Both the position numbers and the translations under genes were made by a program. A DNA stretch of 64,000 nt from Candidatus Nitrospira neomarina (lineage in GTDB: Bacteria; Nitrospirota; Nitrospiria; Nitrospirales; UBA8639). This document shows, piece by piece, positions 23,698 to 62,513 of this stretch. The stretch is taken from assembly GCF_032051675.1 (NCBI RefSeq), contig NZ_CP116968.1:1922001-1986000 (forward strand). Direction: 5' to 3'. Position 1 is the first letter of the stretch. Each line of letters starts with the position of its first letter. The notes beneath the pieces were generated by a model that saw only the letters and a program-made list of their open reading frames with translations, searched no databases and had not been told where the DNA came from.

Positions 23698-26022
23698 TCA
23701 CACAGGAGCTTGATTTTGTAAAGCGACAGCCATCAAACTTTCTTCCGACTCCGCGATCTTTTCAGAGTCAATCTCATCTGCCAGCGTGGGTTCCAGCTCC
23801 TGATCCTCGTCATACGTTTGCCGCACATCCAGAATTTCAATGTCTAATTGAGCTTCAGGGTACAATCGTCGCAAGTCCCATTCTGTAATCCATCCACGTA
23901 CATACTCGCGCATTCGGGTACTGGATAATTTCTCTACAGCTGAAACAGGTGGCGGTGTCCAACTATAGGCCGATCCATGAAGCGCCCGAAGCCGCTCATA
24001 TAATGCATCCACCATTGATTCATAGGGACGAATTAATGATTCGCCCTCCTGTTCGATGAGCCGGATACCCTGAATCGCCTGCAATGCTTGCATATGAGTT
24101 TCATCCGTCGATTCCTCCTGACACATCTGCTCCATTTTCTGGGAATCCTGTTTTTCTTCCAAGATCACGCTTTGGAAATCATCGGTCAGAGCGACAATGG
24201 CAGCAATAGCCGGACAGGTATCCTCGGCTAACACCCCCATCCACCGTGCCACCTCCCTATAGGACTTGGTCCGTTGTTTAAAAGAATATCGCCCGATGAT
24301 TTCCGCCTCATCAATAAGCAAGATCCACCCTTGATAGCCAGCCGCCACCATCAAGCGTGAGACAAATCGAAACCGTTGGAAGGCCAAATCCTGACTGGAA
24401 ATTCTATTGAACACATAGGGGTTTTCGGGCGGACACCCCTGAAGATATTTATTGAGTTGGCTATTGCTCAACGGATCTCCCGCCCAATACCGGATCATGC
24501 GATGACTCAGCTCAGGATCATTAATCATCCGCTCATAGAGATACAGGCTGGCAGCAAACCGGGAATCGCATCCTTGGTCCTTCCGATGCACCCAATCAAA
24601 CAAATTGGCAAAGTGCGGGCTTTGGAAATTCAGTTCACCGGCTATTTCGGTGAGAGCATCACCATGTTTACCGGGAACAATGGCATTGTTGATGGCTGCA
24701 CGAAAGAGAGGTACACCATTATAAAAGGGTGTCTCCTTACTGATCACAATGGGACTGCAGACAAAATTCTTCTCCAGCGCTACCTGTTGCAATGCATGAA
24801 GAAGATGGGATTTCCCACTCCCAAACCCTCCTTCAATTACGATACCTTTGGTAGGCGTGTCATGAGGAACGTTCGCCTCCATCTGTTGAAGTAGCCGTCT
24901 GAATTTGCCTTCCAGGTCCGGTTGGTGACTTCCCAGTACCTGCACGACATCACGATTCGGCACTCCGGATCGCAGAGCTTCCATGGCGCGTTGATGTCCA
25001 ACATCACCATTGGCCATCGCCGGCCGATCAGTGTATTCCTTCCTTCCGGTATCGTGTGCATCCCCGGCCTGTTGAGATCCAAGACGAATCAATGCCCCTA
25101 ATGGGTTTTGGTATTGGCGGTCACGGACTTCGTCCCAAATGCGTAATTTCAACGCCTCATACCGGTTGAGTCCCCTCCGTTCATCTGTCAAAAATTCTTG
25201 CGGCACCTGGACCACCAACAAGAAACTTTCCAATTCATCTGTCCCATCAATAAACTGGCGAAGCATTTCGTAGGCATCTAACGTCGTTGAAATGCCGTAA
25301 TACAGGCCTTCAGGAGAATCCGGCTTCTTACTGAGCAAACATCGACTCAAATCCAGGGACACGACTAACCCTGTTTTCCCAACTAACCGTAACCAACGGC
25401 ATAACGAAACAAACATATACCGGGCATTGGTCCGATTAATTTTCTGAAAAATTAGGGCTTCTTTGAGAGCCGAAATCTGACGAATCTCCCCGCCAAGCCA
25501 TGACTTGACCGGCTCGGTCATAAAGGGAACTTCTGAGCCAGAGTCCAATTGCCCCAGACACAATCGGATCATGGCCATACGAAATTCCTGACACATCTGC
25601 GTATCTCGATAAATAGCCCGCTCTAACCAACTATTTAAATCTCGTCGCAGTAACGGTTCCGCCCGTTCATTCATCCGGGCGACTCCCGTCATGCAGAACT
25701 CCTCCTTGTTGTCCGGAATCTGGTACCCGTTTTCTTGAAGGAGTCGACGAACAAATTGTGAGGCCAGATCATCCCATGGGATGCGACGAGCAATCTGATG
25801 GAAAAACTTATCCATCATATGAATTTTGGTGTCTTTGGCATCAACTAAGATGCACGCATACCCCTCCTGCTGAGCCAAGGTAGCCAGTTGCTCTTGGATG
25901 TCGATTCTATCCGAGTCAGAATCTGTTACCACAAACTTGACCGATGAACCTCCTTGCCCAATAAATCGTTGAAGATATTCTTGCCGAAGGGTATGAAACC
26001 ATTCTTGAGATCGTAACTCCAT
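23698..26022 (-). CDS. BrxD-like (DUF2791) tandem-module ATPase, copy 1
   Basis: 774 residues, with AAGGA upstream of the ATG. The C-terminal module (about 345-700) is a BrxD-type P-loop ATPase: Walker A GGFGSGKS (398-405), Walker B ILLIDEAE (567-574), sensor-like ALTDDFQ. It is preceded by the family's VISKETP and AGDPL stretches. The N-terminal module (1-320; GGSSVKFVV, PWDDLA, GLVVSLDLSR) has the same order of elements but no Walker A. It follows a very similar gene and a coiled-coil gene on the same strand. BrxD proteins belong to anti-phage BREX systems, but no other BREX gene is visible here. Its role is open. Confidence 0.85.
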   Translation of the reverse strand: MELRSQEWFHTLRQEYLQRFIGQGGSSVKFVVTDSDSDRIDIQEQLATLAQQEGYACILVDAKDTKIHMMDKFFHQIARRIPWDDLASQFVRRLLQENGYQIPDNKEEFCMTGVARMNERAEPLLRRDLNSWLERAIYRDTQMCQEFRMAMIRLCLGQLDSGSEVPFMTEPVKSWLGGEIRQISALKEALIFQKINRTNARYMFVSLCRWLRLVGKTGLVVSLDLSRCLLSKKPDSPEGLYYGISTTLDAYEMLRQFIDGTDELESFLLVVQVPQEFLTDERRGLNRYEALKLRIWDEVRDRQYQNPLGALIRLGSQQAGDAHDTGRKEYTDRPAMANGDVGHQRAMEALRSGVPNRDVVQVLGSHQPDLEGKFRRLLQQMEANVPHDTPTKGIVIEGGFGSGKSHLLHALQQVALEKNFVCSPIVISKETPFYNGVPLFRAAINNAIVPGKHGDALTEIAGELNFQSPHFANLFDWVHRKDQGCDSRFAASLYLYERMINDPELSHRMIRYWAGDPLSNSQLNKYLQGCPPENPYVFNRISSQDLAFQRFRFVSRLMVAAGYQGWILLIDEAEIIGRYSFKQRTKSYREVARWMGVLAEDTCPAIAAIVALTDDFQSVILEEKQDSQKMEQMCQEESTDETHMQALQAIQGIRLIEQEGESLIRPYESMVDALYERLRALHGSAYSWTPPPVSAVEKLSSTRMREYVRGWITEWDLRRLYPEAQLDIEILDVRQTYDEDQELEPTLADEIDSEKIAESEESLMAVALQNQAPV

Positions 26023-26201
26023 TGCTCGTATCCTTCACAGGTTAAAAAGTCACAGGCATACACAGAAAGGTTTTACAGACGGTTGAAAAGGCAGAGCCCT
26101 ATGCTGAAACAATGTGTTACCCCGTCTTGAAAGATTCATTCCAATCTGGTGGTTAAATTGCGCAAATTTTCTGATGACAGCCATTTTGGTCAAGATCCAA
26201 A

Positions 26202-28478
26202 TTAGTTCGACTCGGAGAGTGCCGGGTGAAGCTGGTCTTCCTCATCCCCTTCTAATTCAGAATCTTCCGAATAATCCTGTCGAATTTCCGTTAATTCAAT
26301 GTCAACTTTTTGTGTTGGATCAAGACGTGTTAGATCCCATTCGGTAATCCAGCCTTTGACATATTCACGCATCCGGGTGCTGGATAATCGCTCAATCGTT
26401 GGGACCTGAGGTGGTTCCCACCCATACGCGGCTCCATGAATGGAACGAATTTTATGGTAGATTTCTTCTACAAGCTGGTCATAGGGACCGACCAAGGGTA
26501 TGCGTTCGCATTCAATGAGCCGCATTCCCTGTTCTGCTTGGCGGGACAGCACCAAATCGGTTTCCGATCCTGATTCTCGCAGTTTTTCCGGTACTTTTTC
26601 CCTATCACCCTTTTCATCCAAAATCGCACTTTGAAAATCATCTGTGAGCGCCATCACCGCCGCCAATCCGGACTTATAGCCGAGATCGGCAAAGCTGGAG
26701 GCTTCCAGTCGGCCCAGCCACCTGGCTAATTCCGCATAGGACTGGGCTCGTTGCTTAAAGGAATACCTGCCAATAATTTCTGCCTCGTCGATCAGTAAAA
26801 TCCAACCAGAGTATCCCGCCGCAATCATCAGTCGTGAAACAAATTTAAATCGTTGCAATGCCATCTCCATGGGTGAGACTCGTTCAAATCGATAGGCAAC
26901 GCTCCCATCACAGGATTTGAGTAATCGCTTGATTTCAGCATCGGTCAGCGGATCCCCTGCCCAAAATCGAATGATCCGGTGACGTAACTCCGGGTCATTC
27001 ACCATGCGTTCGTAGAGAAACACCGAGGCCGCAAACCGCCCATCAATTTCTCCGCCCTGACGATGCACCCATTCATAAAAATTCGCGTATTGGGGACTCT
27101 TAAAGTTTAAATCCGCTGCCACCTCGGCCAAGACATCTCCTCGTTTTTCGGGGATATCAGCAGCCTCAATGGCCGACCGAAACATCAATGCAGGACTATA
27201 GAGAGGCGTTTCCTTACTTATGACGACCTTGCTACACACAAATCTGGATTCCAAGGCCATACGTCTTAAGGATTCCAGCAAATGTGATTTTCCCGTACCA
27301 AATCCTCCTTCAATCAACATCCCTTTTGTGGTCCAACCCTTATGAATGCTGGCCTGAGCGTCCTGCAACATCTGTTGAAATTTGGATTTGACCATCGGCT
27401 GTGGACATCCCAGCGCTTGGACCACACCCGGGCTCGGGACACCTGCCCTCAAGGATTCAATAACCCGTTGATGCTGCACATCTTCTTTTCGGTTTCCCAC
27501 TCTGGCCAGGAGACTGCTCTCGGCAAAGACTGCGGTCTGGTCAGTCAGCCTGACCATCGGCGCAAAGGGATTTTGTCGGGTTTTATCCCGGACATCATCC
27601 CAAATTCGAAGCTTTAGGGCCTCATACCGATTCAGACCCAACCGTTGATCCGAGAGAAAGGCTTGCGAGGTAACGACCACGACCAATAGCCCTTCGATTT
27701 CATCGCTGCCATCAATGAATTGTCTCAGCATCTCATAGGCATCCATAACTGCAGAGGGCGAATAATTCAGGGAGGTTGCACCGGATTCTTTGCCGCCTGT
27801 AAAGGCTGAAATATCGATGGTCAAGACCATACCGGGTTTCCCCAACAGGCGGGTCCAATGGGCTAAGGAGACGATGAGGTCACGCGCATTACTACGGGTG
27901 ACCTTTTCAAAAATCAATATTTTTTTGAGAGGTGCCATTTGTCTCAGCTCGCCGCGAAGCCAGGCCTTAATTGCTCCCGACTCTGTAGAGGGACTATCCG
28001 GCAATTCCAGCTGAGCCACACACAACTGGATCATGGCCAGTCGAAATTCCCGACTCATATGAAAATCCTGAAACAAGCTCCCTTCCAACCATGCGTTCAC
28101 TTCTCGGTGTATCGTGGCTTCATCGCAACTATTGAGAGAGGCCAGAGAAGACCAGCAACATTCCTCCCGCTGTTCAGGAATCTTCCATTGATGCTCTCGA
28201 AAGAGTTTTTTGACATACTCGAACGCCAAGGCATCCCAATCAATTTGTCTGGCCATTTCCTTAAACAAGAGATCAATGAGTTGAACCTTCGTACAATGAG
28301 AATCCGCGTGAATCGTGACAAAGCCTTGCTCCCGTGACAGCTCCCCCACCCCCACGCTCACAGCTTTGGCCTTCTGTGCCTCCTCCACGACCGCAAATTT
28401 GACGGCCGACCCCCCACGACGAATAAACCCCTGAAGATAGGCAGATTTGAGAACGTTCAACCATTCCTGTGGAGACAT
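26202..28478 (-). CDS. BrxD-like (DUF2791) tandem-module ATPase, copy 2
   Basis: 758 residues with a GAGGAAA ribosome site. Close paralogue of the next gene. The N-terminal module is 1-310 (GGSAVKFAV, DWDALA, GMVLTIDIS). The C-terminal ATPase has Walker A GGFGTGKS (391-398), Walker B LLIDEAE (561-567) and ALTDDFQ. The C-terminal end is strongly acidic. The gene lies 80 bases after the coiled-coil gene and 179 bases before copy 1. The two ATPases probably arose by duplication and could form a hetero-oligomer. No nuclease, helicase or methylase domain is recognised in either protein. Confidence 0.85.
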   Translation of the reverse strand: MSPQEWLNVLKSAYLQGFIRRGGSAVKFAVVEEAQKAKAVSVGVGELSREQGFVTIHADSHCTKVQLIDLLFKEMARQIDWDALAFEYVKKLFREHQWKIPEQREECCWSSLASLNSCDEATIHREVNAWLEGSLFQDFHMSREFRLAMIQLCVAQLELPDSPSTESGAIKAWLRGELRQMAPLKKILIFEKVTRSNARDLIVSLAHWTRLLGKPGMVLTIDISAFTGGKESGATSLNYSPSAVMDAYEMLRQFIDGSDEIEGLLVVVVTSQAFLSDQRLGLNRYEALKLRIWDDVRDKTRQNPFAPMVRLTDQTAVFAESSLLARVGNRKEDVQHQRVIESLRAGVPSPGVVQALGCPQPMVKSKFQQMLQDAQASIHKGWTTKGMLIEGGFGTGKSHLLESLRRMALESRFVCSKVVISKETPLYSPALMFRSAIEAADIPEKRGDVLAEVAADLNFKSPQYANFYEWVHRQGGEIDGRFAASVFLYERMVNDPELRHRIIRFWAGDPLTDAEIKRLLKSCDGSVAYRFERVSPMEMALQRFKFVSRLMIAAGYSGWILLIDEAEIIGRYSFKQRAQSYAELARWLGRLEASSFADLGYKSGLAAVMALTDDFQSAILDEKGDREKVPEKLRESGSETDLVLSRQAEQGMRLIECERIPLVGPYDQLVEEIYHKIRSIHGAAYGWEPPQVPTIERLSSTRMREYVKGWITEWDLTRLDPTQKVDIELTEIRQDYSEDSELEGDEEDQLHPALSESN

Positions 28479-28558
28479 AAATTTTTCCTCAATATCCTGT
28501 TAATCTCATTCGTCTTCTCGGTTCACCCTAGGGAAACTTAAATACGGTCCGGACTCCT

Positions 28559-29446
28559 TTATCCCGTCTGGACAAAGGAAATTCCATAATAGGTTTTCTC
28601 CCGTCCCCCTTGCGCAATCACGGTTAAGGTTTTGTTGGCATCCCGCACACCGGTACTGGCATGAAAGTTTGCCCGATGATTGTTTTTGGTGGAAATGGTT
28701 CCACTTTTATCCAATAAATAGACATCCCGGCCAAATTCTTGTCTGGTGTATTCATTGGCCTGCCACGGAAGGAGCGTCAAGAGTTGGTACAGTTCCAAGA
28801 GGGGAATCACCGTTCCTTTGCCAATGAGGTGCTTCCCTCGACCCGCCACCACAATGGAATAGGCCGTAAAGACCATCTCCAAAAACGTTTGCGGCTTAAA
28901 TCGAAGGGGTTTATTTTGAACTTCCTTTAATCGTTTGACCAAGACCGAAGGACGAAGCCGGTTTTCCCGCATTCGATCAATGGCGACCGCACGTTCTTTA
29001 TGCAGGATGCGTAATAAGACGGGATAAGAAAATAAATAGCCATCGTGCTCATAGAGATTGACACCCATCTGCTGGGCAGTAGTGAGTAGTTCCTGGCGAA
29101 ACGCTTTGCCCTCCAAATATCCAGCTTCATCAAAATTCAGACGGTCCTGGGTTTTCACAAAGTCACACCCCAGGCTCAGGGTCACCTCCTTGCCTTCCTC
29201 CAGTAATTTTCGCAGATTGACCAAATCACCTACTTTCGCTGCATCTTTAATTTTTTTAAATGACGCCATCACCTGCTTCGTGGTTTTTACTAATCCCCCG
29301 GCTTGCTCTTCAATATCAGCCAAGGCCTGCTCCAAATTGACGTTCTTCGGGACAGCCTTTGAAGGAGCATTCGGCAACTCAAGCACACCAGCTGCCGAAC
29401 TCGACCCGCAGGCTTCTACCGTATGATCAATTCCTTCGGCACTCAT
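28559..29446 (-). CDS. Uncharacterised coiled-coil protein leading the DUF2791 ATPase cluster
   Basis: 295 residues, no family recognised. A low-complexity start is followed by a predicted coiled coil (LEQALADIEEQAGGLVKTTK, about residues 35-85). A mixed alpha/beta region follows with many basic residues around 135-190 (DRMRENRLRPSVLVKRLKEV), then a C-terminal beta-rich part. No catalytic motif or signal peptide is visible. It is the first gene of the block 29446-23698 on the minus strand. It may be an adaptor, DNA-contact or target-recognition subunit of the ATPases; this is inference from position only. Confidence 0.75.
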   Translation of the reverse strand: MSAEGIDHTVEACGSSSAAGVLELPNAPSKAVPKNVNLEQALADIEEQAGGLVKTTKQVMASFKKIKDAAKVGDLVNLRKLLEEGKEVTLSLGCDFVKTQDRLNFDEAGYLEGKAFRQELLTTAQQMGVNLYEHDGYLFSYPVLLRILHKERAVAIDRMRENRLRPSVLVKRLKEVQNKPLRFKPQTFLEMVFTAYSIVVAGRGKHLIGKGTVIPLLELYQLLTLLPWQANEYTRQEFGRDVYLLDKSGTISTKNNHRANFHASTGVRDANKTLTVIAQGGREKTYYGISFVQTG

Positions 29447-29664: not shown

Positions 29665-30486
29665 ATGGTTGAACGATTTCTTCAGACTCTATCCATGAAA
29701 AATATGGCGCCATTCGCGGTTATTACAGGAGCTTCACGAGGGATTGGGGCCGAATATGCCAGAGCCTTAGCGGCTCAAGGCTATCATCTCCTGTTGGTCG
29801 CCCGGGACCAAAGCCGTTTGAATGAATTATCCAAGGAGATTCAACAGACCACCTCTGTTCAAGTCTGGACAGAAGCGCTGGATTTGGCCAAGCCTAACGC
29901 GGCTGAAACCCTTTACCAATTAGCTCAATCATATCGGACGGATGTGTCGTTACTTGTCAATAATGCCGGTTTTGGGCTGTATGGCTTATTTACAAACATG
30001 CCACTCTCCACGATCCAAGACATGTTACAGGTCCATATCCATGCGACCACAGAAAGCACAAGACTCTTCCTACCTGATATGATGAATCGACGGCAGGGTG
30101 CAATTATCAATGTGGCTTCCGTGGCAGGATTTTTTCCAATTCCCTATATGGCGGAATACGCCGCCACGAAAGCCTTTATCATATCTTTCTCTGAAGCCGT
30201 GGCGATGGAGGCCAAGGAAAATGAGGTAACCATCCAGGTATGCTGTCCAGGCTACACAAAAACCGAGTTTCATAGGACGGCAGGGCACTGCCCACGCCAC
30301 ATCTCTTCTGCTCACACTCCCCACGACGTCGTACAAAAATCATTAAAGGCCTTGATGTCCCGGCAAACCCTCGTGACTATTGGATGGCAGGGACTGGCAA
30401 CCCAATGGATAACTCCATTTTTTCCTAAAAAGTGGCTGACGCGTCTTACCAGCCGATTTGTTCGACCAAATACCTCCTCTCATTGA
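29665..30486 (+). CDS. Short-chain dehydrogenase/reductase (SDR)
   Basis: 273 residues; a second ATG ten codons in (29695) is possible. The classical SDR Rossmann motif TGASRGIG is near the N-terminus. NNAG is present, and the catalytic Tyr-x3-Lys appears as YAATK. These enzymes oxidise or reduce hydroxyl/keto groups with NAD(P). The substrate is unknown. The DltE/YqjQ-like pattern (SVAGFFPIPYMAEYAATKAF) suggests an uncharacterised oxidoreductase branch. It is divergent from the coiled-coil gene, with 218 bases between the starts. Confidence 0.93.
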   Translation: MVERFLQTLSMKNMAPFAVITGASRGIGAEYARALAAQGYHLLLVARDQSRLNELSKEIQQTTSVQVWTEALDLAKPNAAETLYQLAQSYRTDVSLLVNNAGFGLYGLFTNMPLSTIQDMLQVHIHATTESTRLFLPDMMNRRQGAIINVASVAGFFPIPYMAEYAATKAFIISFSEAVAMEAKENEVTIQVCCPGYTKTEFHRTAGHCPRHISSAHTPHDVVQKSLKALMSRQTLVTIGWQGLATQWITPFFPKKWLTRLTSRFVRPNTSSH

Positions 30487-30517
30487 ACACACGGCCTCCA
30501 TAGAAAAGGAGCACAGT

Positions 30518-30949
30518 ATGTCCCATTCCTATTTCCATTCATTTATTGTCCCCCTTAGCATCTGTAGTGTTTGTATCCTAGCCTTTGGCTGCTCTGGCCC
30601 TCGCCCAATCCTTTATCCCAACGATCATCTTCAACAAGTTGGCCCCGATCGAGCAGAACAGGACATTGAGGAATGCCAACAGCTTGCAGAGGATTATGTC
30701 CCGGAGCACGATGCCGCGTCGGTGGCTGGGAATACTGCCGTTGGAGCGGGAGCAGGGGGTGCCGTCGGTGCAGTCAGCGGGGCCATTCGAGGAGGAGCGG
30801 GTATTGGCGCAGCCATAGGTGCCGCAACAGGTGCGACCGTTGGCTTTATTCGTGGCTTATTCCAGGCCTCGCAACCAACACCTGCTCACAAGTCTTTCGT
30901 TAACCGATGTCTTTCGGAACGAGGGTACGATTCGATTGGTTGGGAATAG
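30518..30949 (+). CDS. Glycine-zipper lipoprotein
   Basis: 143 residues from the ATG at 30518, with AAAAGGAGC upstream; the frame is open to 30458 inside the SDR gene. A lipoprotein signal ends at the lipobox AFGC. The centre is a glycine-zipper region (GNTAVGAGAGGAVGAVSG and GAGIGAAIGAATGA, about residues 70-110), which usually packs helices in the outer membrane. Cysteines near each end could pair. It probably lies in the outer membrane and helps envelope integrity; exact function unknown. Confidence 0.8.
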   Translation: MSHSYFHSFIVPLSICSVCILAFGCSGPRPILYPNDHLQQVGPDRAEQDIEECQQLAEDYVPEHDAASVAGNTAVGAGAGGAVGAVSGAIRGGAGIGAAIGAATGATVGFIRGLFQASQPTPAHKSFVNRCLSERGYDSIGWE

Positions 30950-31066: not shown

Positions 31067-31927
31067 TTAAAAAAATGAGGAGCTTTCTGCACGACGGAGG
31101 GCTCGCATCAAAACTGGATCTTGATATGCCACTTCACTTAAGGCGTCCAATATATGAAGATCTTTTTCCTTGGCCAGAGCTTTAGCTTTACTGAATTGTC
31201 GTGAATTAAATCGGGCCACGGATGGCTGACCATTGATGATCTGACACGCAAGACCTCCACCATCTTTCAGTGCAAGGGTGCCCCCATGATCAAACAAGGT
31301 ACGAGTCTCATCCACGCTGATCCCATGCAGTTCCGCAAAATCATGGAGCCCACTGGTCTCAATCAAACGTCCATCTGGCATGACACATTTTCGCTTAAAA
31401 TGGGGAGACCAATCTTTCCGAAAATCAATATATTGAATGTCTCCACTACACGCGTTCCCTGATTCAACTTTTGTCAAATCGATCCCTAAGTTTTTTTGCC
31501 GCAACCGATCCTGTAATTCCTGAGGAAGGCCTCGATAAAAAACCCGCTCCATGCCTTCTTCCAACGTTACACCATAACTTTGACGCATGCGTTCGGCTGC
31601 CGCATATTGCTCAAGATCCATGACCCACGTGTGTTTCGGATCTTTACCAAGAGGATCAACACGACAGACGAATGCGCCTTTTGTGACAAGCGGACCTTCA
31701 TGCGGATAGAGATATATCCCCCCGTCTTGAAGCACGCCAGTTATAGATTCAAGAGGAATAGCATAACTTTCAGACAGGACTCGTGCATGCACCTCCAAAT
31801 CTTCCGGTTCCGTCATTCCGCAGACCATTACATTTCCAGGAGGATCATAATCGGTATAGTTCTCTAGTATATTATAGAGAACCGGGGGTTTCTCTTTTTT
31901 TAAGGGACGTTTTTTCACTTTAAACAT
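31067..31927 (-). CDS. Conserved-looking protein of unknown function
   Basis: 286 residues, cytoplasmic by appearance, with a very basic start (KVKKRPLKKEK). Nothing recognisable: no P-loop, no signal peptide, no membrane helix. The middle carries an aromatic/charged block (GDIQYIDFRKDWSPHFKRK) and the end a helical part. Composition and length support a real gene. It stands alone between a convergent lipoprotein gene and the divergent pyrE. Confidence 0.65.
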   Translation of the reverse strand: MFKVKKRPLKKEKPPVLYNILENYTDYDPPGNVMVCGMTEPEDLEVHARVLSESYAIPLESITGVLQDGGIYLYPHEGPLVTKGAFVCRVDPLGKDPKHTWVMDLEQYAAAERMRQSYGVTLEEGMERVFYRGLPQELQDRLRQKNLGIDLTKVESGNACSGDIQYIDFRKDWSPHFKRKCVMPDGRLIETSGLHDFAELHGISVDETRTLFDHGGTLALKDGGGLACQIINGQPSVARFNSRQFSKAKALAKEKDLHILDALSEVAYQDPVLMRALRRAESSSFF

Positions 31928-57548: not shown

Positions 57549-58859
57549 TCAAACCTGCGACTGTTTCCTCCATAGCCACCATAGTTGAAATCCGAACCCG
57601 GAAAGCATCGCGGCCAAGCCCACATATAATCCGGTCACTTGCCCATAAAGAACTCCGGCCAGTAAAAACATGGAACTTCCAAACAGATACAAACACACGG
57701 CTTGAGTAATAACAGAAGTCATCCCACGATGAACAAACTGGCCTTGAAAAAAACTTTCCCATGGACTCAAAGCGGGAAAAATCACCATGAGCCAGAGGGC
57801 TGTGGAGGCCAACACGGTCAGCTCAGGAGTCAGAGCCGCACCCCATTCAAACCAGAGAGTGGAGAGAGGAGTGGCTGCAATGATAAAAAGGATTCCGCTC
57901 GTACAGATTGAAACTATCGTCACAAATTTCTTCAGAGGGACGAGAAAATGCGGTCGGTCATAGAGGGCGACAACCACCTCCTGCATCGCCAATCCTCCAC
58001 TCCGAAACACAAACGAGAGCCCACCCAACACCGGCCAGACAGCCAAGGACTCTATCGCGTTTGGCATCCGACTGATGGCCGCACTGACAATCGGTAGATT
58101 CCCAAGAGAAATGAGTGGAGTAAATGCGAGAGGCCAATAAAACACGCGTAATTGATTCAGTGTGAGAGGCAAAGGATGCACCGGACTCATTTTAAGATTG
58201 GTGAGGATCGGACGCACGAAAAACAAAATAAAGCCAGCCTCGACCATTGCCCCGGAAGACATCGCGACTGTCGCCACGACAATCCCTGGAAAACTCTGTA
58301 GAACGATTCCGCAAATTAAGACCGAACTGCTTATGAATAAACGGACCAAGGTTCCCAGTCCAATCAGGCGCGTCTGCCCTGCACGAATCACCACTCCCTG
58401 AAAAAACCTTCTCACCGCAATCGAGAGCGTCCATGGCGTCATGCATTGAAGACCGATTCTGGCCGGTTCCACAATAATATCAGGAACACCTAACACGTCT
58501 TGTACGATCATCCCGTACACCGGCGTAAAGGCCACGACGACATGCACGACAGTGAGAAGACTTCCCAAAACCAGAATGAAATTTCGAATAAGCCGGTAGG
58601 CCAACCAATCCTTACATAAGGCGGTGGACGCAACCAAAATCATAATGACGGGTGCCTCGATCAACAATGAGAGAGGAAAAACCACTCCACCATAGGCTGC
58701 TAAATGGACCTCAGGATCGGCCAGGCGGGATACCGTGGCCGTGACCAGTGGAAACTCCAAACCCATGAGCATCCAACTCGCGGCCAAGGGCCACCACATG
58801 CGGAAAATCGTGAGGAATGGAGAAGGAGAGGCAGGTAGGGCCTGCGTGTAAGCAGTCAC
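57549..58859 (-). CDS. Multi-spanning membrane protein (ANKH/MATE-like)
   Basis: 436 residues from a GTG, with about 12 membrane helices. The first segment (WWPLAASWMLMGLEFPLVTA followed by VSRLADPEVHLAAYGGVV) resembles bacterial homologues of the ANKH/MATE superfamily. Later parts (LSPWESFFQGQFVHRGMTS) fit the second six-helix half. It is probably a transporter or flippase; the substrate is not evident. No accompanying biosynthesis gene. Confidence 0.7.
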   Translation of the reverse strand: MTAYTQALPASPSPFLTIFRMWWPLAASWMLMGLEFPLVTATVSRLADPEVHLAAYGGVVFPLSLLIEAPVIMILVASTALCKDWLAYRLIRNFILVLGSLLTVVHVVVAFTPVYGMIVQDVLGVPDIIVEPARIGLQCMTPWTLSIAVRRFFQGVVIRAGQTRLIGLGTLVRLFISSSVLICGIVLQSFPGIVVATVAMSSGAMVEAGFILFFVRPILTNLKMSPVHPLPLTLNQLRVFYWPLAFTPLISLGNLPIVSAAISRMPNAIESLAVWPVLGGLSFVFRSGGLAMQEVVVALYDRPHFLVPLKKFVTIVSICTSGILFIIAATPLSTLWFEWGAALTPELTVLASTALWLMVIFPALSPWESFFQGQFVHRGMTSVITQAVCLYLFGSSMFLLAGVLYGQVTGLYVGLAAMLSGFGFQLWWLWRKQSQV

Positions 58860-61772: not shown

Positions 61773-62513
61773 TTACACAGGAAAATGCACACTGATTTGA
61801 CAGGCACGTTTATACAATTGATTAGCTCGCGCTTCGCATATTTCATCATCGTGTAGATGAAATAACGTTCGTCCGATTTCATGAAACGGCACACCCAGAT
61901 CCACGGCATCCAGCACGCGGAGATACATCGGCCATTCATCCCGACATTTTCGCCGTTCGAGATTTCGACCGACTTGATGTTTTTGCCATTCCATAAGATC
62001 TGCCTTCACTTTTTCAATTTGCCCCGACAACGGCTTTTTCAGATCAAACACGGCCGCCATTCGCCATTCCGACAAACACAAGGTGACCTCTTCACCTCCC
62101 CCCAGCCAATCCGGTCCCTGTCCGAAATAGATCCGACCGTAATTCGAATCAAATGACAACATCCAGGGTTTGGCAATGGCGGGATTCGGAAGGCCACTGA
62201 GATGGTATTTTTCTAATGAATTGGGCATGCGAGCTTTAAATGCCGGATGATCCGGCGTAAAAACTTTTTTGCGATATCGAGTGGGATACTGAGGATCTTT
62301 GGCACAGGACAGATCAAAATCGTATGTTTGCAGGTAGTGTTGTTCCCAATCCTTCCGGTAATCCGAACGACGCCGGAGAAACTCCCACCGCCAAAAGGTA
62401 TCGTTTAAACTCTGGGCGCAGGGATAGGTCTCCTCACGTTGCCAGTTGGGAACGGTCCCTACCACTCGTGGATGCCGCTGTAGTTCTTTGGGCGGTCGTT
62501 TACTGCTCGACAT
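61773..62513 (-). CDS. DUF6499-like protein, possible regulator of copy 3
   Basis: 246 residues with a strong ribosome site (AGGAGG). The segment FWRWEFLRRRSDYRKDW (residues 40-56) matches the N-terminal pattern of DUF6499 proteins, called transcriptional-regulator-like. The middle and C-terminus (PMYLRVLDAVDLGVPFHEIG then LFHLHDDEI) look like a DUF2285-type helical domain. It may bind DNA and control the downstream ATPase gene; this is inference from position and family. Confidence 0.65.
   Translation of the reverse strand: MSSSKRPPKELQRHPRVVGTVPNWQREETYPCAQSLNDTFWRWEFLRRRSDYRKDWEQHYLQTYDFDLSCAKDPQYPTRYRKKVFTPDHPAFKARMPNSLEKYHLSGLPNPAIAKPWMLSFDSNYGRIYFGQGPDWLGGGEEVTLCLSEWRMAAVFDLKKPLSGQIEKVKADLMEWQKHQVGRNLERRKCRDEWPMYLRVLDAVDLGVPFHEIGRTLFHLHDDEICEARANQLYKRACQISVHFPV

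Follow-up and report, generated by a model that had tools for sequence, protein, structure and literature searches.

The object of this analysis is a set of ATPase genes of Candidatus Nitrospira neomarina, lying in a 64,000-nucleotide stretch of contig NZ_CP116968.1 (positions 1,922,001 to 1,986,000; the whole stretch is hereafter called the window). A first-pass annotation of this sequence had drawn attention to three genes on the same strand, coding for a 295-residue protein (S) and two paralogous ATPases of ~765 residues (B and A), and these open reading frames (ORFs) were all confirmed (Table 1). The intergenic gaps within the S-B-A block are 80 and 179 bp, and A is 49% identical to B. The description of the ATPases as a tandem pair was correct but incomplete: what is duplicated in tandem is a fusion of a pseudo-ATPase with an ATPase, and a third copy, C3, situated 33 kb from the A/B pair, had been overlooked. 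A search of the whole genome (one 4.80-Mb contig) with B gave three copies, all of them inside the window: B, A and C3, the last being 46% identical to B.

Table 1. Components of the ATPase cluster, followed by landmark genes, with their positions in the window
Feature	Position	Strand	Evidence and remarks
S, 295 aa	28559..29446	(-)	ORF; leading gene of the block
B, fused N-C ATPase, 758 aa	26202..28478	(-)	ORF and PF10923 match
A, fused N-C ATPase, 774 aa	23698..26022	(-)	ORF and PF10923 match; paralogue of B with the same architecture
C3, fused N-C ATPase, 860 aa	59079..61661	(-)	ORF and PF10923 match; N-terminal extension and longer C-terminal tail
Divergent short-chain dehydrogenase (SDR)	29665..30486	(+)	adh_short match; adjoins S in other genera of the family; syntenic landmark, not a proposed component
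Small glycine-zipper lipoprotein-like gene	30516..30949	(+)	ORF, conserved synteny; syntenic landmark only

The assignment of the ATPases to a BrxD-like family was well founded, since A, B and C3 match PF10923 (BrxC_BrxD) with scores of 106, 108 and 111 bits, far above the gathering score of 22.2. In each protein the match falls into two or three stretches, which correspond to two tandem modules, an N half and a C half (residues ~1–330 and ~335–758 in B). The C module of B possesses an intact Walker A motif (GGFGTGKS, 391–398) and an intact Walker B motif (ILLIDEAE, 560–567); the N module has no Walker A and reads GGSAVKF at the equivalent place. The Walker motifs earlier reported as intact are therefore so in the C-terminal half, but not in the N-terminal half, which is a degenerate second module. 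This arrangement is general: in an alignment of representatives from many phyla, a P-loop is never found in N, which reads GGxxVKF-like there, and always in C, where every aligned sequence displays a G-x-FG-x-GKSH Walker A and a DE-type Walker B. Each ATPase thus consists of two fused BrxC/D-like modules of the ORC/Cdc6 class, the N half degenerate and the C half intact. The AlphaFold2 model of B has a mean predicted local distance difference test score (pLDDT) of 90 and a predicted template modelling score of 0.89; the folds nearest to its C module are archaeal ORC2 (Z 10.6), TnsC (Z 10.5), BrxC (Z 10.3) and MuB (Z 9.1), and the sole Foldseek match below an E-value of 0.001 is the RADAR ATPase RdrA. 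Sequence searches of the PDB with B and S gave nothing useful.

When the three proteins of the block were searched against Pfam, both ATPases matched PF10923 but S matched no family, and S likewise had no match in NCBIfam, PADLOC or PHROG. The AlphaFold2 model of S (built on a 64-sequence alignment; mean pLDDT 85) predicts 34 disordered residues, then a long helical hairpin (about residues 38–103) and an alpha/beta domain of ~190 amino acids. Because of this hairpin the label 'coiled-coil' given to S by the first-pass annotation is fair for the N-terminal third of the protein, and for that third only. Foldseek gave no match to S under an E-value of 0.001, and the VIA-align rows cover the helical hairpin only, which leaves the alpha/beta domain with no clear fold match in the PDB. 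S is probably a dedicated adaptor of N and C, acting through the hairpin and the C-terminal domain; the first-pass annotation had likewise put it forward as a possible adaptor or specificity subunit.

The distribution of S was analysed with one short peptide pattern, and 80 of 90 hits were kept; counts for the S family are for this reason lower bounds. Relatives occur in about ten phyla, among them Syntrophales and other deltaproteobacteria, Myxococcota, Bacillota, Chloroflexota, Gemmatimonadota, CSSED10-310, Actinomycetota and Nitrospirota. N and C directly follow S in all 67 loci with room for them (>3.3 kb from the start of S): 20/20 in the window's family, 21/21 in Actinobacteria and 26/26 elsewhere. 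The proposal of a separate ATPase-based system is hence upheld: it is distinct from BREX (bacteriophage exclusion), and S and the ATPase halves do recur together, so that the lack of joint recurrence named by the first-pass annotation as contrary to its idea was not encountered. N and C are fused in the 20 loci of the window's family, the sole exception seen inside that family being the genus G032, where they are still split (319 and 427 amino acids); outside it, fusion was found in 2 of 47 loci (both from CSSED10-310), the rest having separate genes.

Outside the window's family and the Actinobacteria, the locus extends to a five-gene order, S-N-C-X-helicase: X, a protein of ~185 amino acids with no match in Pfam or PADLOC, is present in 20 of the 23 loci with room and an SNF2 helicase (H) in 22 of 23. 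Several of these helicases run on into an Mrr_cat restriction-endonuclease domain, in which the D-(15)-QCK motif is intact; others end after the helicase core, without a nuclease domain. The best PADLOC matches of H are the ZorD and DpdE models. In one actinobacterial subclade (Acidimicrobiia-type), a ResIII/XPB-like helicase of 510–540 amino acids, encoded directly after C, takes the place of the SNF2 protein; in two loci of the actinobacterial subclade (L147, 12950–14560; L153, 12963–14498) the ResIII/XPB-like helicase after C was seen to carry an extra N-terminal region. S-N-C is combined with different helicases and is therefore a portable module. The neighbours of the operon were also recorded. 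In two loci (L089, 2–9904; L090, 990–9425, whose sequence ends after the start of N) genes for a DUF499 protein, a DUF1156 methyltransferase and a PLD-helicase lie directly upstream of S-N-C-X-H, making these loci candidates for two defence operons side by side, and in the L083/L085 group a type I restriction gene is found near the S-N-C operon. A MutS gene stands upstream of S-N-C in one Dehalococcoidia locus (L107, 5777–8353), a single case with a possible repair context. In Actinoplanes subtropicus, a 1475-amino acid ORF lies downstream of S-N-C (L131, 15396–19823); it matches no Pfam family and contains a GGGKSS motif resembling that of SMC proteins. A defence function of the full operon is likely. 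The earlier suggestion of an anti-phage or DNA-processing role suits the wider operon, whose SNF2 helicase, often with Mrr, fits a restriction-like or DNA-processing system; the locus in the window is core, syntenic and devoid of this helicase and of X.

The absence of these partners was established as follows. A genome-wide profile search for X was negative in 59 of 59 relatives, the same profile responding in G090, G237 and G238, and none of the 14 loci with room in the window's family has an SNF2 or X gene after C. SNF2 matches do exist in the genomes of relatives; these are unlinked, mostly of 1190–1220 amino acids, and also present in a family that has no S, and they were rejected as the missing H on these grounds. 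A Mtr4/Ski2-like helicase beside S-N-C in G032 (L031) was likewise rejected as a partner, as it occurs in 9/9 genomes tested, relatives without S included.

BrxD is the best named family for the ATPases, and one might ask whether they are orphan BrxD proteins of a type 2 BREX system that has lost its other components. The scores against the BrxD equivalog NF033438 are 93.1 and 68.8 bits and do not reach its curated cut-off of 350, and S-N-C keeps conserved partners of its own in 67 loci. The claim that BREX partners are missing was borne out at the locus, where PglX methyltransferase, PglW and BrxHI were not found and those flanking ORFs that were checked belong to ordinary genes. It was also extended: PglZ (PF08665) had no match in the whole genome of the window or in six relatives, control genomes responding to the same search. 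In view of this genome-wide absence of PglZ the system is not BREX, and we consider descent by loss from type 2 BREX very improbable.

We compared how regularly S is carried. It was found in 18 of 20 genomes of the window's genus, the window's own included, and the two genomes without it are fragmented assemblies (82–83% complete) in which the ATPases are still present. Elsewhere in bacteria the operon is rare and patchily spread, and in the two groups sampled S is accessory: it was found in 6 of 151 genomes in a sample of the Actinoplanes family and in 8 of 149 in a sample of the Syntrophus order, i.e. 4–5%, and one of the eight Syntrophus-order copies is decayed, with internal stops. The difference between core and accessory status is pronounced (Fisher P = 7e-19), a value that describes the contrast and is no formal test of domestication because related species do not count as independent observations. 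From genus to genus the same gene order is preserved, namely S, ATPase, divergent SDR and lipoprotein gene. Between close species, the ratio of non-synonymous to synonymous substitution rates is 0.05–0.09 for S, A and B, against 0.14–0.28 for the neighbouring SDR gene and 0.06–0.10 for an orotate phosphoribosyltransferase-like gene (the lipoprotein gene, being of low complexity and unreliable, was left aside); at larger distances, conservation is 79% for S and 76% for B versus 54% for the SDR. S, A and B are under strong purifying selection. Neither S nor the ATPases had a match in the collections of plasmids, phages and viral contigs searched, and in the window's genome the cluster does not lie in a defence island but consists of syntenic core genes.

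These data bear on the idea that the Nitrospira cluster remains active as a compact anti-phage or anti-plasmid system, in which the duplicated ATPases block or exclude invading DNA on their own or aided by a helicase or nuclease encoded elsewhere. Relatives of the cluster carry nuclease-helicases, some of them adjoin BREX-related DUF499/DUF1156 genes or type I restriction genes, and unlinked SNF2 proteins are available in the genomes. Core status, synteny and strong purifying selection across the genus and beyond, the lack of matches on plasmids, phages and viral contigs, and the loss of X and of the linked helicase all speak against it, and we judge it unlikely.

A tree of C-module sequences was used to trace the history of the cluster. 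A, B, C3 and the window's family form one group (support 100/99) beside a clade of S-N-C-X-H loci from Bacillota, Thermodesulfobacteriota, Myxococcota and others, and phyla are intermixed over the tree. A and B constitute separate well-supported clades; each includes the J017 lineage, so that the A/B duplication predates the split of that lineage. C3 is on a long branch within the A/B group and its exact place is unsure. The topology would fit a history in which fusion preceded duplication; the order of fusion and losses is inferred.

The combination of an ORC/Cdc6-like AAA+ protein with an SNF2 or XPB-like helicase is also known from repair and replication, and the whole S-N-C-X-helicase family could in principle be a machine of DNA repair or replication restart, whose AAA+ ring would remodel stalled or damaged DNA and pass it to the helicase. 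Besides this general fit, some operons lie among housekeeping genes (MutS upstream in L107, for example) and some helicases lack a nuclease domain. The patchy 4–5% distribution, the decayed copy, the mixing of phyla in the tree and the fusion to an Mrr-type nuclease fit an accessory restriction-like system better, and this possibility appears to us rather unlikely.

The explanation that we prefer, with probability tilting slightly in its favour, is that the window cluster arose by domestication from the widespread S-N-C-[X]-helicase operon, is helicase-less, and acts today as a resident AAA+ machine associated with DNA. AAA+ proteins of the ORC/Cdc6, TnsC and MuB class form assemblies on DNA that recruit partner proteins or load them. 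By analogy, N (pseudo-AAA+) and C (active AAA+) would probably form a mixed ring or filament on DNA, with N as a structural or DNA-sensing subunit and S as the adaptor. In the full operon this ATP-driven ring may load the helicase (SNF2 or XPB-like, often Mrr-fused) onto DNA that is foreign or abnormal, or license it there; the helicase would be the engine acting on the DNA so marked, whether or not it bears a nuclease. In the marine Nitrospirales family, N and C were fused, the fusion was triplicated (A, B and C3), and X and the helicase-nuclease were lost; what remains in Nitrospira, S and the fused motors, might then be a DNA-bound ATPase machine without a nuclease. The analogy extends to BrxD of type 2 BREX, for which a role in helicase loading, together with BrxHI, has been proposed (PMC12839542). 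Domain anatomy, recurrence, gene order, the fusion, the losses, core status and purifying selection come straight from the computations; ring formation, helicase loading, a restriction function of the ancestor and a housekeeping role in Nitrospira are deductions. A more specific version can be put forward tentatively, as possible though short of probable: the S-N-C-X-helicase operon would be a restriction-like anti-invader system in which the pseudo-AAA+/AAA+ pair loads the SNF2-Mrr protein, and its loading half would have been domesticated in marine Nitrospira as an essential or near-essential machine of chromosome maintenance with three fused motors.

Several points weigh against domestication of such an operon. 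Ring formation is a deduction from fold class, and the Z values of the best fold matches are modest for a 758-amino acid model. Core conservation alone is compatible with a fixed defence system. The unrelated large SNF2 proteins encoded elsewhere in the genomes could act with the ATPases, so that 'helicase-less' holds for the locus and for this helicase family only. Finally, the neighbours of the full operon, as judged from a PADLOC scan of 81 flanking proteins without a control set, are a mixture of defence and housekeeping genes; with defence neighbours in some loci only and no such control, an association with defence islands is not claimed.

It was of interest to compare the operon with known systems. 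S-N-C resembles BrxD/BrxHI of type 2 BREX in its PF10923 match, its ORC/Cdc6 AAA+ class and the linkage of an AAA+ gene to a superfamily 2 (SF2) helicase. It differs in having a dead N and a live C module, S and usually X, and a helicase that is SNF2 or XPB-like, whereas BrxHI is Ski2-like; no PglZ, PglX or PglW was seen. BREX-Related (BR) DUF499 systems comprise an AAA+ ATPase and a Swi2/Snf2 helicase with an optional C-terminal restriction-endonuclease domain (PMC12839542). The pairing of an AAA+ protein with a Swi2/Snf2 helicase that can bear a nuclease domain is thus shared, and one DUF499/DUF1156 locus adjoins S-N-C-X-H in Dethiobacter-type genomes; however, S-N-C-X-H has no DUF499 or methyltransferase gene inside, and its ATPase pair and small proteins are different. 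As in Zorya ZorD, whose models are the best match, H is an SNF2 helicase with an Mrr-like nuclease, but many H proteins lack the nuclease domain, and H is accompanied by S, N, C and X where ZorD has ZorA-C as partners (ZorA, ZorB and ZorC are not among the 25 neighbour families listed). Shango combines SngA (TerB-like), SngB and SngC; the PADLOC model of its ATPase SngB matches the ATPase modules weakly, with a low score, and nothing in the PADLOC models matches S or X. The C module is structurally closest to TnsC, MuB and ORC/Cdc6; identity to these is ~10–15%, the live module is paired with a copy devoid of Walker A, and a transposase was not observed among the regular neighbours.

No paper describing the S-N-C-X-helicase gene set was found in a text search of a collection of open-access papers (subscription papers, preprints and databases later than PADLOC 2023 being outside its scope), and the operon is apparently undescribed. 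It belongs to the familiar class in which an AAA+ protein is combined with an SF2 helicase, as in restriction-like systems, and has an unusual branch that is probably domesticated. The operon family spans about ten phyla, neither S nor X has a counterpart in Pfam or in the PADLOC library of 2023, and the helicase-nuclease allows function to be tested directly. In the marine Nitrospira branch an ATPase module of the defence type seems to have become fixed among the core genes, which would be a rare event, and the fusion, triplication and effector loss make a conversion from defence to housekeeping testable in a globally important nitrite oxidiser.

C3 deserves separate mention. Its N-terminal extension, absent from A and B, starts MSKLIEALNRLQ and is kept across genera as MSxIxxALNRLQ; it resembles a short docking peptide, which suggests a distinct partner for C3. 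The gene is conserved in other genera together with its own neighbours, a 436-amino acid membrane-type protein and small regulatory genes. The former (57549–58859; no Pfam match) adjoins C3 and is kept there in other genera with 54–95% identity, and upstream of C3 a 246-amino acid protein (61773–62513) with a weak match to PF20109 (transcriptional regulator-like) keeps its place within the genus (72–96%). Near S, a 286-amino acid protein without a Pfam match (31067–31927) is conserved in a different genus (L032), where it again lies in synteny with S and the SDR.

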